From the NCBI GenBank assembly GCA_944341075.1, contig CALVLV010000006.1, positions 17,701 through 81,700 of the forward strand: DNA of 64,000 bases, written 5' to 3'. This DNA is from an uncultured Clostridia bacterium (GTDB lineage Bacteria > Bacillota > Clostridia > Christensenellales > Borkfalkiaceae). Under the pieces are notes generated by a model. That model was not told the DNA's origin, made no database searches, and saw nothing but the letters and a program-made list of their open reading frames with translations. Shown here one piece after another: positions 1 through 8,971 of the stretch (the first letter of the stretch is position 1; each line of letters starts with the position of its first letter). A program made the position numbers and the translations under genes.

Positions 1-823
1 TGCCGTCGCCCGCGGGTACGCCCGCCGTTTTGCCCGTGCGGTATACCGAAGATCCCTCCTCTACCTCTCTGTCGTCGCCGAAGAGAATTACGCCTACGTT
101 GCCTTCGGCAAGCTCCTGAACCATGCCCTTGAGGCCGCATTCAAACAGCACTATTTCGCCGTATTCCACGAGGTCGAGCCCGCTTACGCGCACGATGCCG
201 TCGCCTACGGAGAGCACCTTGCCCGTTTCGCGCGCGCCGAGGGGCATTGCCCAGCCGCCTATGGCCTGCTTTAAGCCGTCTACCGTTTCGCGGAGCAGCG
301 ATGTCACGCCGCCCGCCGACTTTATGTCTTCCTTGAGTCTATTTATCCTGCCCTGCGCCGACCAGTCGTACACCTTGCCGGCAAATTCCAGGCGGAAGCC
401 GCCGACTATTGCCCTGTCTATGACTATCTCTATTTCGGGGCGGACACCGTAGGACTTTTCAAGGAAGTCTGCAAAGCCCCTGCGCTGAGTATCGGTGGGG
501 GGAGTTATGCAATACAGGCGCGCCACGGGCGCGGAAGAAACTGCCTGCTGCTTTGCGGGCGCCGCGGTGAAGTCTGCGGCGGCGGCGCCTATCTGCCCGC
601 TTATCTTTTGTACGTTGCCCTTTGCAGACCAGTCGTACACGTCGCCGTTATATTCAAGGCGGAAGCCGCTTACCAGCGACTTATCTTCTGTGATTTTAAT
701 TTCGGGGCGGGCGCCGTACTTTTTTTCAAGAAAGTCCGAAAGACCCTTTTTCTGCTCCTCCGTGGGGGGAGTAACGCAGTACAGACGGGCTATATCTGCG
801 GGGGAATTACGCTTTTTTTCCAT
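1..823 (-). CDS. atpA: ATP synthase F1 alpha subunit with two N-terminally fused delta C-terminal domains (partial)
   Basis: The reading frame is open from an ATG at 823 to the left edge (274 codons), so the 3' part is outside the window. Residues about 12-77 and 101-166 are two similar copies of the C-terminal domain of the delta (OSCP) subunit; both open with ARLYC(V/I)TPPT and contain GFRLE..G.VYDWSA.G. From about residue 200 the protein matches the alpha subunit beta-barrel (GKVLSVGDGIVRVSGL, then GNVGVILFGD and YRTGKTAGVPAG). The delta N-terminal domain is absent. A GGAGGGAG ribosome site precedes the start, and the gene overlaps the end of atpF by 17 nt. No stop or frameshift separates the parts. 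In ordinary enzymes delta is a separate protein that joins the b stalk to alpha; here the joint appears covalent. Alpha identity is clear, although the catalytic core is not in view. Confidence 0.93.
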   Translation of the reverse strand, partial: MEKKRNSPADIARLYCVTPPTEEQKKGLSDFLEKKYGARPEIKITEDKSLVSGFRLEYNGDVYDWSAKGNVQKISGQIGAAAADFTAAPAKQQAVSSAPVARLYCITPPTDTQRRGFADFLEKSYGVRPEIEIVIDRAIVGGFRLEFAGKVYDWSAQGRINRLKEDIKSAGGVTSLLRETVDGLKQAIGGWAMPLGARETGKVLSVGDGIVRVSGLDLVEYGEIVLFECGLKGMVQELAEGNVGVILFGDDREVEEGSSVYRTGKTAGVPAGDG

Positions 824-1532
824 CTGCGCTCCCTCCGTTCACCGATTTTAAGAACTCGTCGTACACGGCGCTGTCGCTGCCCTCTGTCCTGCCGCGCTCT
901 ATGGCGGCAAGGGCGGCCTGACCTATGACGTCGGCAACGCTTTCTTCCGCCTTGCCTTCTTCTGCGGCGGAAACATTTTCTGCGGAAAGGGCGGCTTCGG
1001 CCCTGTCTGCGGCGCCGCTTATGGTTATATCTTTATCTGCAGTGGAAAGGTAGCTGTCGTAAAGCGCCCTGTCGCTTTCGGGCGTGCTGCCCACGACAAG
1101 CAGTTTTTCGGCAGACTTTACCACCATGTCGGCTATCTCGCTGCCGGCGCCCGCAATGTATGCGGCGCGCTCCTCTTCGGAACGCTTTCTGCCCTCGGCG
1201 AGTATGCCGCGCGCCTCGCTTTCGGCCTCGGCTATCAGCTGGCGGCTGCGCGTTTCGGTCCGGGCGAGCACCTCTTTGCGGTGCTCTTCAAGCTCGGCGT
1301 CAAGCCCGGCGAGCTTTTCCTTGCGCTCCTTTTCCATCTGCTCTATTTCAGCCTTCTTTTTTGCGTGCTCTTCGGCGGCGGCCTTGTATTTTTCCTCGCG
1401 CTCGCGCATGAACTTGCGCACGGGCTTGTAGAGTATGAACGTAAGCCCCGTTGCGAGTATTATAAAGTTGAATACGTGCAGCAATATCTGCTGCCAATCA
1501 ATACCCAGTATTGTACCGGCAAGCATTGTCAT
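807..1532 (-). CDS. atpF: ATP synthase F0 subunit b, with extended C terminus
   Basis: This is the peripheral stalk subunit of F-type ATP synthase, 241 residues against about 160-170 usually. One membrane helix at about residues 13-33 is followed by a long charged coiled coil (about 40-140), as in b subunits. The extra C-terminal 90 residues are Ala/Glu/Ser rich and contain two related short motifs, DRALYDSYLS (about 159) and DSAVYDEFLK (about 219), the second resembling the usual b C-terminal helix that binds delta. The start ATG at 1532 follows a GGAGGAGG site. The gene lies between atpE and the delta-alpha fusion, in the place where atpF and atpH normally sit. The tail is not a recognisable delta N-terminal domain. 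Confidence 0.93.
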   Translation of the reverse strand: MTMLAGTILGIDWQQILLHVFNFIILATGLTFILYKPVRKFMREREEKYKAAAEEHAKKKAEIEQMEKERKEKLAGLDAELEEHRKEVLARTETRSRQLIAEAESEARGILAEGRKRSEEERAAYIAGAGSEIADMVVKSAEKLLVVGSTPESDRALYDSYLSTADKDITISGAADRAEAALSAENVSAAEEGKAEESVADVIGQAALAAIERGRTEGSDSAVYDEFLKSVNGGSADGKKA

Positions 1533-1572: not shown

Positions 1573-2019
1573 TTATAATACAAATATGAGAAGAACGGAT
1601 ACGATGAGCGCGTAAATTACTACTGTCTCTATGAACACGAGGCCGAGCATCATTGTGGAGCGGATGTTGCCCGACGCTTCGGGCTGGCGGGCGATGCCCT
1701 CCGACGCCTTGGCTATTGCCATGCCCATGCCTATCGCGCCGCCGAGGGCTGCAAGGCCGATGGCTATTGCGGCGGCTATAGCTTTGCCGCTTGTGCTGTT
1801 ATCTGCCGTGCCTTCATCGGCTGCGGGTGCGGGGGTCGTTTCGTCTTCGGCATAAAGCTCTATGTCTTCATCCTGCCCCTGAACTTCTTCCGTAACGGAA
1901 GTTTCGGCAGATACGGGCGTGGCAACGACCACCTGCACTGCGGCGGTTACTGCCGCGAATGCGACGATCGCCATGAGCGCTGCAACTACAAACGACATAA
2001 CTTTTTTTGCAAGTTTCAT
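1573..2019 (-). CDS. atpE: ATP synthase F0 subunit c, with signal-like N-terminal extension
   Basis: This is the proteolipid c subunit that forms the rotor ring. The last 72 residues are a normal c hairpin: a glycine-rich first helix (GGAIGMGMAIAKA), the polar loop ARQPEA, and a second helix with the ion-binding Glu in FIETVVIYAL. The Gln typical of Na+-binding c subunits is replaced by Met, so proton coupling is more likely (inference). The first 75 residues are unusual: a Lys-rich start, a long hydrophobic stretch ending in a plausible ATPVSA signal-peptidase site, then about 35 acidic residues. Canonical c subunits are about 70-90 residues, against 148 here. The ATG has a strong GGAGGAAATT site. 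The gene sits between atpB and atpF. Confidence 0.94.
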   Translation of the reverse strand: MKLAKKVMSFVVAALMAIVAFAAVTAAVQVVVATPVSAETSVTEEVQGQDEDIELYAEDETTPAPAADEGTADNSTSGKAIAAAIAIGLAALGGAIGMGMAIAKASEGIARQPEASGNIRSTMMLGLVFIETVVIYALIVSVLLIFVL

Positions 2020-2109: not shown

Positions 2110-2967
2110 TCAGGCGGCAGCCCTTGCCTTTTTGGCCCTTTTGGCCTTGGGCTTTTTGATATGCGGCTCGGTCACCTCGCCGAAGTATGTTGCGGTGAGC
2201 ACGACGAGGACGTACGTCTGAATGAGCGCGTGCAGCAATGTGAACAGCACGCCGACGATTACGGGCAGCACTATGCTGAGCGAAACGGTATAGTAGACGA
2301 GCTCGGTGACGAGCAGGCCCGAGAGCAGCGCGCCGAACAGACGGAAGCTCATGGAAATGGGCAGCGAAAACTCCTTGAGGGCAAGGCCCAGGCCGCGGGC
2401 GCCGCTCTTTATTACGCCGCCGAAGAATATTACAAGGTAACTCATGCAGCCCATGGCGATGGCGCCGTTGATATCCGAAAGCGGCGCGGGCAGCGACACG
2501 GGGTATCCGTTTGTGGAGCTTATCTGTATGCCCGCAAGCTCGAACAGCGTGCCAACGCAGATATAGCAGCCCGCGGCAAAGATATAGCAACCCAAAAAGC
2601 CGTTTGAATGGGGGCTGTTGCTGCGGGCCATGTCGTCGAAGAAACCCACGAGCTTTTCTATGAGCAGCTGGAACTTGCCGGGCACCTCTTTAAAGCGGGG
2701 CAGGGCGAACACGCGCACGCATACCGCAAATATTAGCAGTATGGCGGTGACTATCATGGCAGAAATCGCCGCGGGGTGCACCTCCCAGCCGAAGAGGCTT
2801 ATCCTCTTTTCTTCGTGCATAACGGCATCGGTAAGCTCCTCCGAAACGCTGCCCGAGCGCGCGCCCTGGCCTATGAGCAGCGCCGCCACGAGTATGGCGA
2901 TGAGAAGCACGCCTATCACCCCGAGCACTATATATTTTTTACTGAGCGATCTTTTTACAGTTTTCAT
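2110..2967 (-). CDS. atpB: ATP synthase F0 subunit a
   Basis: This is the stator subunit that forms the ion path next to the c ring, 285 residues with five to six membrane helices. The essential Arg lies in MSFRLFGALLSG, and the penultimate helix (LLHALIQTYVLVVLTATYFGE) is typical. An N-terminal membrane anchor (about residues 12-33) precedes the conserved part, and a Lys/Ala-rich C-terminal tail (KKPKAKRAKKARAAA) follows it. It is the first recognisable gene of the atpB-E-F-(delta)A operon; no atpI is recognised upstream. Confidence 0.95.
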   Translation of the reverse strand: MKTVKRSLSKKYIVLGVIGVLLIAILVAALLIGQGARSGSVSEELTDAVMHEEKRISLFGWEVHPAAISAMIVTAILLIFAVCVRVFALPRFKEVPGKFQLLIEKLVGFFDDMARSNSPHSNGFLGCYIFAAGCYICVGTLFELAGIQISSTNGYPVSLPAPLSDINGAIAMGCMSYLVIFFGGVIKSGARGLGLALKEFSLPISMSFRLFGALLSGLLVTELVYYTVSLSIVLPVIVGVLFTLLHALIQTYVLVVLTATYFGEVTEPHIKKPKAKRAKKARAAA

Positions 2968-7837: not shown

Positions 7838-8773
7838 TTAATTTCTTTTTTTCAGATTGCCTGCCAGATTAGTGAATATATAATTGTATTCGTAAACATC
7901 ATAGCCCAGCTTATCACGGCCAACAGGAGAAACATTTTTTAACCTATCTGCCGCATCTGTATTAATTTTTACCAATTCATTTATGAAGAACGAATATCTC
8001 TTCTCGTAACCTTCAAACGAATTGTCTTCTATTAGGCATTGGATTTTATCATCCAAACTATGTACACCATAATATATCTGATAACCACCAATTACCACTG
8101 TAGGCTCAAAATATTCACTTAAGTAAGTATTTGCAAGAACGCACTTATCTAGCAACCCGGCTATATCTGCTTTTTCCGGCATATTATAATCTGAAATTTG
8201 TATAACAACGTCATTTTCCGATATAAAAGAACCATCACCGCCACGTGAGTACGAAATAGATTTACCACGGAATATTTCCGATATAAAATCGAGGACGGCT
8301 GTCGTTTTAATGTCATTTATACGAATAATAACTTTACCGACAAAAAGCTGCTTATTCTGAATACCTTTAAGCTCTTTAAAAAATCTTACTCCTGCAGCAG
8401 AATCATAAAAATCAATAAAATCATTCTGCTCAGCATTGCCACTTTGCTCGTTATTTTTTATTTCATAATGATTCTGAACTTTAATAATTTCAAATTTTTC
8501 CCCATTCGCTGAAAAACAAGGAAACTTATCGGCCTTTTCGTCGTTCGTTTTGATATGACAGCATATTAAGTTGCTTTCTGTTGTTTTTCCGCCTCTGCTT
8601 TGCGGCAAAATATGGTCTATATTCCAGCCATACTTACTATTCCTGTCGTCATAGGCAGCTTTAGCAATTTCTCTTCCGGAAAAATCAACAGCTTTTTCGT
8701 TTTTGCCAAACGCTTTGTTCCAAAGACGCATAGCTGTTTCGCGGTTGATAACCATTATTGTATTTGTTTGCAT
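7838..8773 (-). CDS. HNH endonuclease-domain protein
   Basis: This 311-residue protein has an HNH nuclease motif near the N terminus: GWNIDHILPQSRGGKTTESN followed by LICCHIKTNDEKADKFP, giving the His, Asn and His positions. The remaining 200 residues are a poorly recognised alpha/beta region without membrane segments. The ATG at 8773 is preceded by AAGGAGGATTTATATCT; an upstream in-frame start at 8854 lacks a good site. The gene is much richer in A/T than its neighbours and has its own consensus promoter and a long leader, which suggests recent acquisition. It could be a solitary defence or mobile nuclease; no methylase or partner gene is adjacent, so the role is open. Confidence 0.85.
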   Translation of the reverse strand: MQTNTIMVINRETAMRLWNKAFGKNEKAVDFSGREIAKAAYDDRNSKYGWNIDHILPQSRGGKTTESNLICCHIKTNDEKADKFPCFSANGEKFEIIKVQNHYEIKNNEQSGNAEQNDFIDFYDSAAGVRFFKELKGIQNKQLFVGKVIIRINDIKTTAVLDFISEIFRGKSISYSRGGDGSFISENDVVIQISDYNMPEKADIAGLLDKCVLANTYLSEYFEPTVVIGGYQIYYGVHSLDDKIQCLIEDNSFEGYEKRYSFFINELVKINTDAADRLKNVSPVGRDKLGYDVYEYNYIFTNLAGNLKKRN

Positions 8774-8971
8774 AGATATAAATCCTCCTTGAATAATAGA
8801 AAATTTATATCTTAAAGAACCTCCTTTGCAGTTCATTACAAATACATTGACCAACCATTAGGGCAACCTAATTGCTGTAAACCTCTAAGGGTAATCCTCA
8901 TAACAGCGTTCCAGAAGATTAGTTGACCTGCTTTCTATGAAAGCTTTTAGATTTGTTGCAACTGCATTTTT
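8774..8971 (-). promoter_or_regulatory. Long 5' leader of the HNH gene
   Basis: About 190 nt separate the predicted transcription start (near 8965) from the ATG. The leader holds a GCTTTC-ATA-GAAAGC hairpin, an unused GGAGG about 60 nt upstream of the real site, and a 21-codon frame beginning MRITLRGLQQ. This is consistent with post-transcriptional control but does not prove it. Confidence 0.4.

Follow-up and report, generated by a model that had tools for sequence, protein, structure and literature searches.

The ATP synthase operon of an uncultured Clostridia bacterium encodes an α subunit to which two tandem C-terminal domains (CTDs) of the δ subunit (OSCP) are fused, and the b subunit of the same operon carries a doubled C-terminal tail. 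The fused, doubled clamp and the doubled b tail of this clade suggest that motors with additional or stronger stalks exist in nature. The stretch of DNA analyzed herein (the window; 64,000 nucleotides, G000:C6:17701–81700) covers only the first 274 codons of the fusion gene (2..823, minus strand; residues 1–274 of 679), and the remainder extends to G000:C6:16484, outside the window. The complete gene (L003:8485–10524, minus strand) is intact, encodes 679 amino acids, and lies within an 81.7-kb contig. A single open frame runs from an ATG at window position 823 on the minus strand past the left window edge, preceded by a Shine-Dalgarno (SD) sequence, GGAGG, located 8 nt upstream of the ATG, and the operon is arranged in the order a, c, b, [δ-CTD x2 - α], γ, β, and ε. 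The Pfam OSCP profile (PF00213) matches the fusion twice (window 596–790 and 326–523), solely with profile positions 105–170 and 105–171, the CTD being present and the N-terminal domain (NTD; profile positions 1–104) being absent. These ranges fit the first-pass annotation, which had placed two δ-CTDs at residues about 12–77 and 101–166 in one frame with α. Briefly, CTD copy 1 (CTD1) occupies residues 12–77 (593..790, minus strand), a linker variable in length and sequence follows at residues 78–100 (524..592, minus strand; pLDDT 50–60), and the α-proximal CTD copy 2 (CTD2) occupies residues 101–166 (326..523, minus strand). Between CTD2 and the α core, an N-terminal α helix is predicted by AlphaFold2 at residues 174–189 (257..304, minus strand) with low confidence (pLDDT 54–56). 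A complete α follows in the same frame at residues 179–673 (NCBIfam atpA, TIGR00962, 722.6 bits; cut-off, 484.45) and carries all three ATP-synt_ab domains (PF02874, PF00006, and PF00306). The earlier estimate of up to six CTDs per F1 follows arithmetically.

AlphaFold2, supplied with an alignment of 19 sequences, predicts two separate β-α-β-β-β-α units, with pLDDT mostly >90 in both CTDs and 70–83 in the last helix of each. The top PDB matches of the predicted CTDs in Foldseek are δ/OSCP chains, with a few unrelated proteins from rank 37 on; since each match covers a single domain, TM-scores calculated for the full query are approximately 0.3. In a PDB sequence search with the fusion N-terminus, the best match is an engineered delta-deltaN-alpha chain, 9jc1_I (E 1.1e-7), of which residues 7–109 align with query residues 102–203, i.e., from CTD2 through the junction and the N-helix into α. 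This chain originates from Bacillus PS3, in which δ residues 2–104 were deleted and the CTD was fused to α in a background lacking the ε C-terminal domain, the δ NTD being located on the threefold axis, where it restricts FoF1 to a single stalk (Ueno et al., 2025; PMC12229609). Cryo-electron microscopy of the engineered enzyme (PDB 9jc1) revealed one to three stalks, two on average, each site showing b2 in its canonical pose; gels indicated a 2.2-fold content of a and a 1.8-fold content of b, and H+/ATP was 5.8 versus 3.0 (PMC12229609). Three-stalk particles were rare, for which the authors blame loss during grid preparation (PMC12229609). The natural fusion resembles the engineered one in that an NTD-less CTD is placed on the α N-terminus through a short linker with the N-helix retained (predicted here, at low confidence), and in that the engineered junction is colinear with CTD2-α. 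The two differ in that the PS3 construct combines one CTD with PS3's own b, whereas two CTDs are combined with a doubled b tail here.

The first-pass annotation knew of no description of this arrangement, which requires a division. The single NTD-less fusion has been engineered, solved, and noted in nature (Ueno et al., 2025; PMC12229609), and is thus already known, whereas no description of the double version was found, and what is new is the doubled CTD with the doubled b tail. In literature searches limited to open-licence papers, none of the titles and abstract openings listed mentions a tandem CTD or a doubled b tail, and among the same literature a fusion of δ to α is described only in PMC12229609. 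Natural single fusions are named there as well (Acidaminococcus fermentans; UniProt G4Q3K6 and A0A1I2C5T3), and A. fermentans is considered highly likely to be multi-stalk (PMC12229609). The Acidaminococcus fusions are compared here through that mention only, and the window gene belongs to another bacterial group.

A frame of this kind might be an artefact produced by a frameshift, a chimaeric assembly, or pseudogene formation, or the cell might process or bypass the fusion and so obtain a normal α; the genome is indeed a draft of 44 contigs. This explanation is, however, very improbable in light of the relatives. Upon a search of 101 genomes (its own and 100 relatives), an F-type α was found in 39 and an OSCP match in the same 39, and intact doublet frames occur in 14 of 16 same-genus operons, the other two carrying one CTD. 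The doublet also occurs in independently assembled contigs, several of which are named Candidatus Coproplasma. Many of these named-assembly loci are identical in sequence to members of the genome set, from which the genus takes its name here. Among 28 named-assembly loci found by pattern, two CTD motifs precede α in 20, one in six, and none in two, the short motif pattern having scored L126 and L129 as none; L126 has a divergent CTD. Furthermore, both CTDs are under constraint: across 91 pairs of the 14 doublets, the median pN/pS is 0.44 for CTD1, 0.35 for CTD2, 0.28 for the α core, and 0.47 for the α N-terminus (residues 172–200), in comparison with 0.93 for the linker (residues 78–99), which is poorly aligned and serves as a rough internal control. 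Assembly error and pseudogene formation were rejected on the basis of this conservation and constraint, and the indel or mis-assembly by which the fusion might have been refuted is unsupported. Bypass through an internal start yielding unfused α was also considered and rejected. An ATG is located 20–22 codons into the α core in all 16 genus operons, but it lies beyond the N-helix, so that its product would be α without that helix, and an SD-like GAGG accompanies it in only three; other starts near α in these operons are scattered and without SD. Since no SD-bearing internal start at α is conserved, unfused α is unlikely.

No other OSCP match or δ NTD was found in the same genome at E ≤ 10 (metagenome-assembled genome, 94.7% complete), which agrees with the earlier claim that the δ NTD is missing and answers the proposed check for a separate atpH. 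The genome yielded a single a gene and a single b gene, and besides α and β a single further PF00006 match is present, which resembles Rho by eye. Within the genus, at least 20 genomes, 13 of which are >90% complete, are listed without an F-type α, versus 16 with it; the ATP synthase is thus patchily distributed within the genus, which can dispense with it. Other ion pumps are present in the genome of the window, which codes for a membrane pyrophosphatase and an RnfD-like protein.

The second half of the joint, which the first-pass annotation did not mention, is altered as well. The b subunit binds δ through its C-terminal end (PMC6131620), and it is this segment that is doubled in the 241-residue b subunit of the window (atpF, 807..1532, minus strand; PF00430), the gene of which overlaps the start of the fusion by 17 nt. 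Copy 1 (residues 132–165; 1038..1139, minus strand) is recognized by a hidden Markov model (HMM) of single-copy b tails, and copy 2 (residues 198–232; 837..941, minus strand) by hhalign of the pooled copies. Among 40 operons, b is 229–249 residues long in each of the 16 genus operons (two of these values count from an early start) versus 158–188 residues in the 24 others. With pooled profiles, copy 2 aligns with copy 1 at E 2.5e-9 and with single-copy tails at E 3.4e-8, whereas the 16 individual tails score 6.0–23.8 bits against the single-copy HMM, and seven of them surpass all shuffles while nine do not (3200 shuffles were made, 2448 of which obtained a score, the best being 9.1 bits); it is the pooled profiles, and not the individual tail scores, that are decisive for the doubling. 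AlphaFold2 predicts a helix-break-helix in both tail copies (copy 1 to residue 148, then 151–166; copy 2 at 199–214, then 219–232), at a modest tail pLDDT of 56–80. The median pN/pS over 120 pairs is 0.40 for the b stem, 0.36 for copy 1, 0.84 for the linker, and 0.48 for copy 2. The additional segment is not δ joined to b: Pfam yields only ATP-synt_B on this protein, and the extra part matches b tails.

Upstream in the operon, the c subunit (atpE, 1573..2019, minus strand; PF00137 at residues 81–144) has an N-terminal extension of approximately 80 residues, in which a hydrophobic, signal-like stretch and an acidic segment precede the two c helices, and long c subunits recur in other operons of the window's ATP synthase subtype. 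The a subunit (atpB, 2110..2967, minus strand), the sole copy found in the genome (PF00119, one match), has an extra hydrophobic N-terminal segment, which is probably membrane-spanning and is also found in related operons. Elsewhere in the window, an open reading frame at 7838–8854 (minus strand) contains an HNH endonuclease-like stretch recognized by eye.

Loss of the δ NTD extends well beyond this clade. In a sample of 248 genomes of the order, α is present in 125 and an OSCP match in 124, the odd genome (G611) having a 601-residue α frame. Among the 124 genomes with δ, 19 have the full-length form, 34 a stand-alone CTD, and 72 a CTD fused to α, as counted by eye, with G094 counted twice (full-length and fused). 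Stand-alone CTDs were defined by CTD-only matches within short frames of 71–249 residues, and CTD-only frames of 559–796 residues were taken as fused because the α frame is also at least 559 residues; these classes rest on match rows, and whole operons were inspected for a subset. In a sample of 398 genomes of the phylum, an OSCP match was found in 334, and among the matches listed, i.e., the strongest, all are full length. A separate δ NTD encoded before a stop codon was considered for the 12 CTD matches that reach into NTD positions (19–52), and was rejected since the part in question is the b tail in all 12, G064 included. Hence, genomes with an NTD-less δ, either on its own or joined to α, are common in the order, a point likewise absent from the first-pass annotation.

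On an α tree built from 40 operons, fused CTDs intermingle with stand-alone ones, with weak deep branches; parsimony on this tree requires eight changes for the state “fused single” and six for “stand-alone.” A one-time origin of the fusion within the order was rejected on the basis of this intermingling, the weakness of the deep branches being borne in mind. A single-fusion subtype, whose α is 57–64% identical to that of the window, occurs in several families; it is represented by the loci L081, L099, L101, and L133–L136 (G065, G094, G097, G619, G580, G637, and G656) and, by α identity, in G537, G584, G585, G587, G597, G611, G635, and G662. In G094, a single-fusion operon is found alongside a canonical δ operon. 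Spread of this subtype by horizontal transfer is possible.

One genome of the order, G659, carries the fusion further. Its single 754-residue protein (L148:440–2704, minus strand) comprises a membrane helix, a stalk-like segment, a δ-CTD, and a complete α: the N-terminal helix has a Kyte-Doolittle hydropathy of 2.19 in a 19-residue span that begins at residue 4, approximately 140 stalk-like residues follow, and the δ-CTD lies at residues 168–243 (37.5 bits). The N-terminal part matches ATP-synt_B of Pfam weakly, below the cut-off (E 0.11), and a separate 142-residue b-like gene is located upstream. The protein is the only α match in that genome, a single case in one genome; if it is real and all three α subunits are this protein, each head would carry three membrane-anchored half-stalks.

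Within the clade of the window, comprising 24 members (the genus operons and the named loci with a distinct α, with L120, missed by the pattern, added by eye), every member has a doubled b tail; two CTDs are present in 21 and a single one in three, G015, G057, and L125. Because these three combine a doubled b with one CTD, b copy 2 can do without CTD1, and they are the chief objection to a strict pairing of CTD1 with b copy 2. On the α-core tree, the three are not placed together: L125 is basal to one half, and G015 and G057 group with the doublet locus L103; the two-CTD label requires four changes by parsimony, three of them forced by starred branches. Furthermore, grouping of the CTD1 copies as one clade was rejected by the AU test (p 0.0114; 71 columns, the group having been named after the tree was seen). 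It follows that the doublet either formed or underwent conversion repeatedly; a single origin was accordingly rejected, and parallel gain and gene conversion both fit. The distance from the CTD motif to the α core is 44–51 residues in all 33 fusions measured, while the spacing between CTD1 and CTD2 varies from 71 to 91 residues in 21 doublets, which identifies CTD2 as the constrained copy.

These shifts in copy number, at least three to four on the α tree, together with the failure of CTD1 copies to form one clade, raise the prospect that CTD1 is a near-neutral tandem duplication, gained and lost, and that only the single fusion matters. A partial tandem in an unrelated stand-alone δ beside a single-tail b (L132) points in the same direction. 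Nevertheless, we regard near-neutrality as improbable, since CTD1 is constrained (median pN/pS, 0.44 and, for seven closely related pairs, 0.09–0.26; linker, 0.93) and two CTDs have been kept in 21 of 24 members. The tandem at L132 (2640–3035) is itself independent, the 131-residue δ consisting of a CTD seemingly without its last helix followed by a full CTD. The CTD doublet is a variable layer above the doubled b tail and the NTD-less δ, and the simplest order of events would be loss of the NTD, then fusion, then a single doubling of the b tail, with doubling of the CTD afterwards being repeatedly gained, lost, or homogenized.

Comparison with other known enzymes places this architecture apart. 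The canonical F1Fo of Escherichia coli and PS3 shares its subunits, the order a-c-b-δ-α-γ-β-ε, the δ-CTD fold, and the b tail motif, but has a separate two-domain δ with the NTD on the threefold axis and one stalk (PMC12229609). The atpFH product of mycobacteria likewise joins δ covalently to a neighboring subunit (PMC5709465), on b and not on α. The PDB chains 8j0s and 7jg5 of this b-δ fusion match the window's fusion. The mycobacterial fusion retains the δ NTD. N-ATPases, which lack δ and have a longer b (PMC5706428), share the absence of a separate δ, and were considered because the NCBIfam list of b includes the alt_F1F0 b family, below its cut-off; this assignment was rejected, α scoring 594.5 bits against a cut-off of 750.5 (TIGR03324). 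The stand-alone δ-CTD of L096 matches the end of TIGR03321 (179–244 of 246) weakly, far below the cut-off (E 8.5e-5), and the N-ATPase b may, from this similarity, carry a δ-CTD-like end, in which case the domain would be on b and not on α. The Chloroflexus aurantiacus ATP synthase is represented by six PDB entries (9itj, 9itk, 9itl, 9its, 9itt, and 9itu) with 12 δ chains, i.e., two per entry on average, and may be a further natural F-ATPase with multiple δ subunits, although its δ is a separate, unfused protein of 157 residues.

Regarding function, the sequences show a δ cut to its b-binding CTD and joined to α, with CTD and b tail doubled and both under constraint; we give about an even chance to the reading that the head thereby takes several stalks and b gains a second contact. 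The canonical site is most likely filled by CTD2, CTD1 being the addition, because the junction aligns with the construct of Ueno et al. and the distance from CTD2 to the core is steady. By analogy with the engineered fusion, the CTD2 of each α would occupy the canonical δ site on its own α and hold a b2 stalk. As each α would have its own stalk socket, several stalks could bind, and the threefold head, no longer plugged by the NTD, would accept more than one and up to three. Each stalk would bring its own a subunit, which would raise H+/ATP and permit ATP synthesis at a low proton-motive force. More tentatively, b copy 2 might dock on the CTD1 of the same α or, where CTD1 is missing, on a free CTD of a neighboring α, and this extra contact might help stalks without the δ NTD anchor to hold better.

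The same parts could instead serve a single b2 whose four tail segments hook the CTDs of two or three α subunits, fusion and doublings offsetting the lost NTD by avidity at a normal H+/ATP. The doubling of b beside the single-CTD α of G015, G057, and L125 fits tails that reach neighboring subunits, and so does the single a gene fit one stalk, although it would serve a multi-stalk enzyme equally. We nonetheless consider a single stalk rather unlikely: the engineered enzyme with its single fusion bound an average of two stalks and a maximum of three (PMC12229609), no other feature limiting the number to one was found here, and in the G659 protein an anchored stalk is part of the α chain itself, which we count in support of several stalks per head. 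Every ATP synthase so far has one a subunit per complex according to Ueno et al., who show that this limit is lifted when the δ NTD is removed and the CTD is fused to α, leave natural multi-stalk enzymes to experiment, and seek stalks that bind stably (PMC12229609). Judged from the sequences, evolution seems to have taken their engineered steps in this clade.

It is conceivable, at somewhat below an even chance, that much of the order runs multi-stalk ATP synthases and that Coproplasma has doubled both halves of the joint, such that up to three stalks stay attached. If this is true, the δ-CTD would be a socket on each α, whether stand-alone, fused, or within one protein as in G659, from which the symmetry-breaking NTD has been lost; each stalk would come with its own proton channel, and H+/ATP would reach a multiple of the ordinary ratio, which suits a low proton-motive force. 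Full δ, stand-alone CTD, fused CTD, doubled CTD with doubled b tail, and the stalk-CTD-α chain form a graded series in uncultured anaerobic gut bacteria, through which natural multi-stalk motors, and the determinants of stalk number and H+/ATP, become directly testable.
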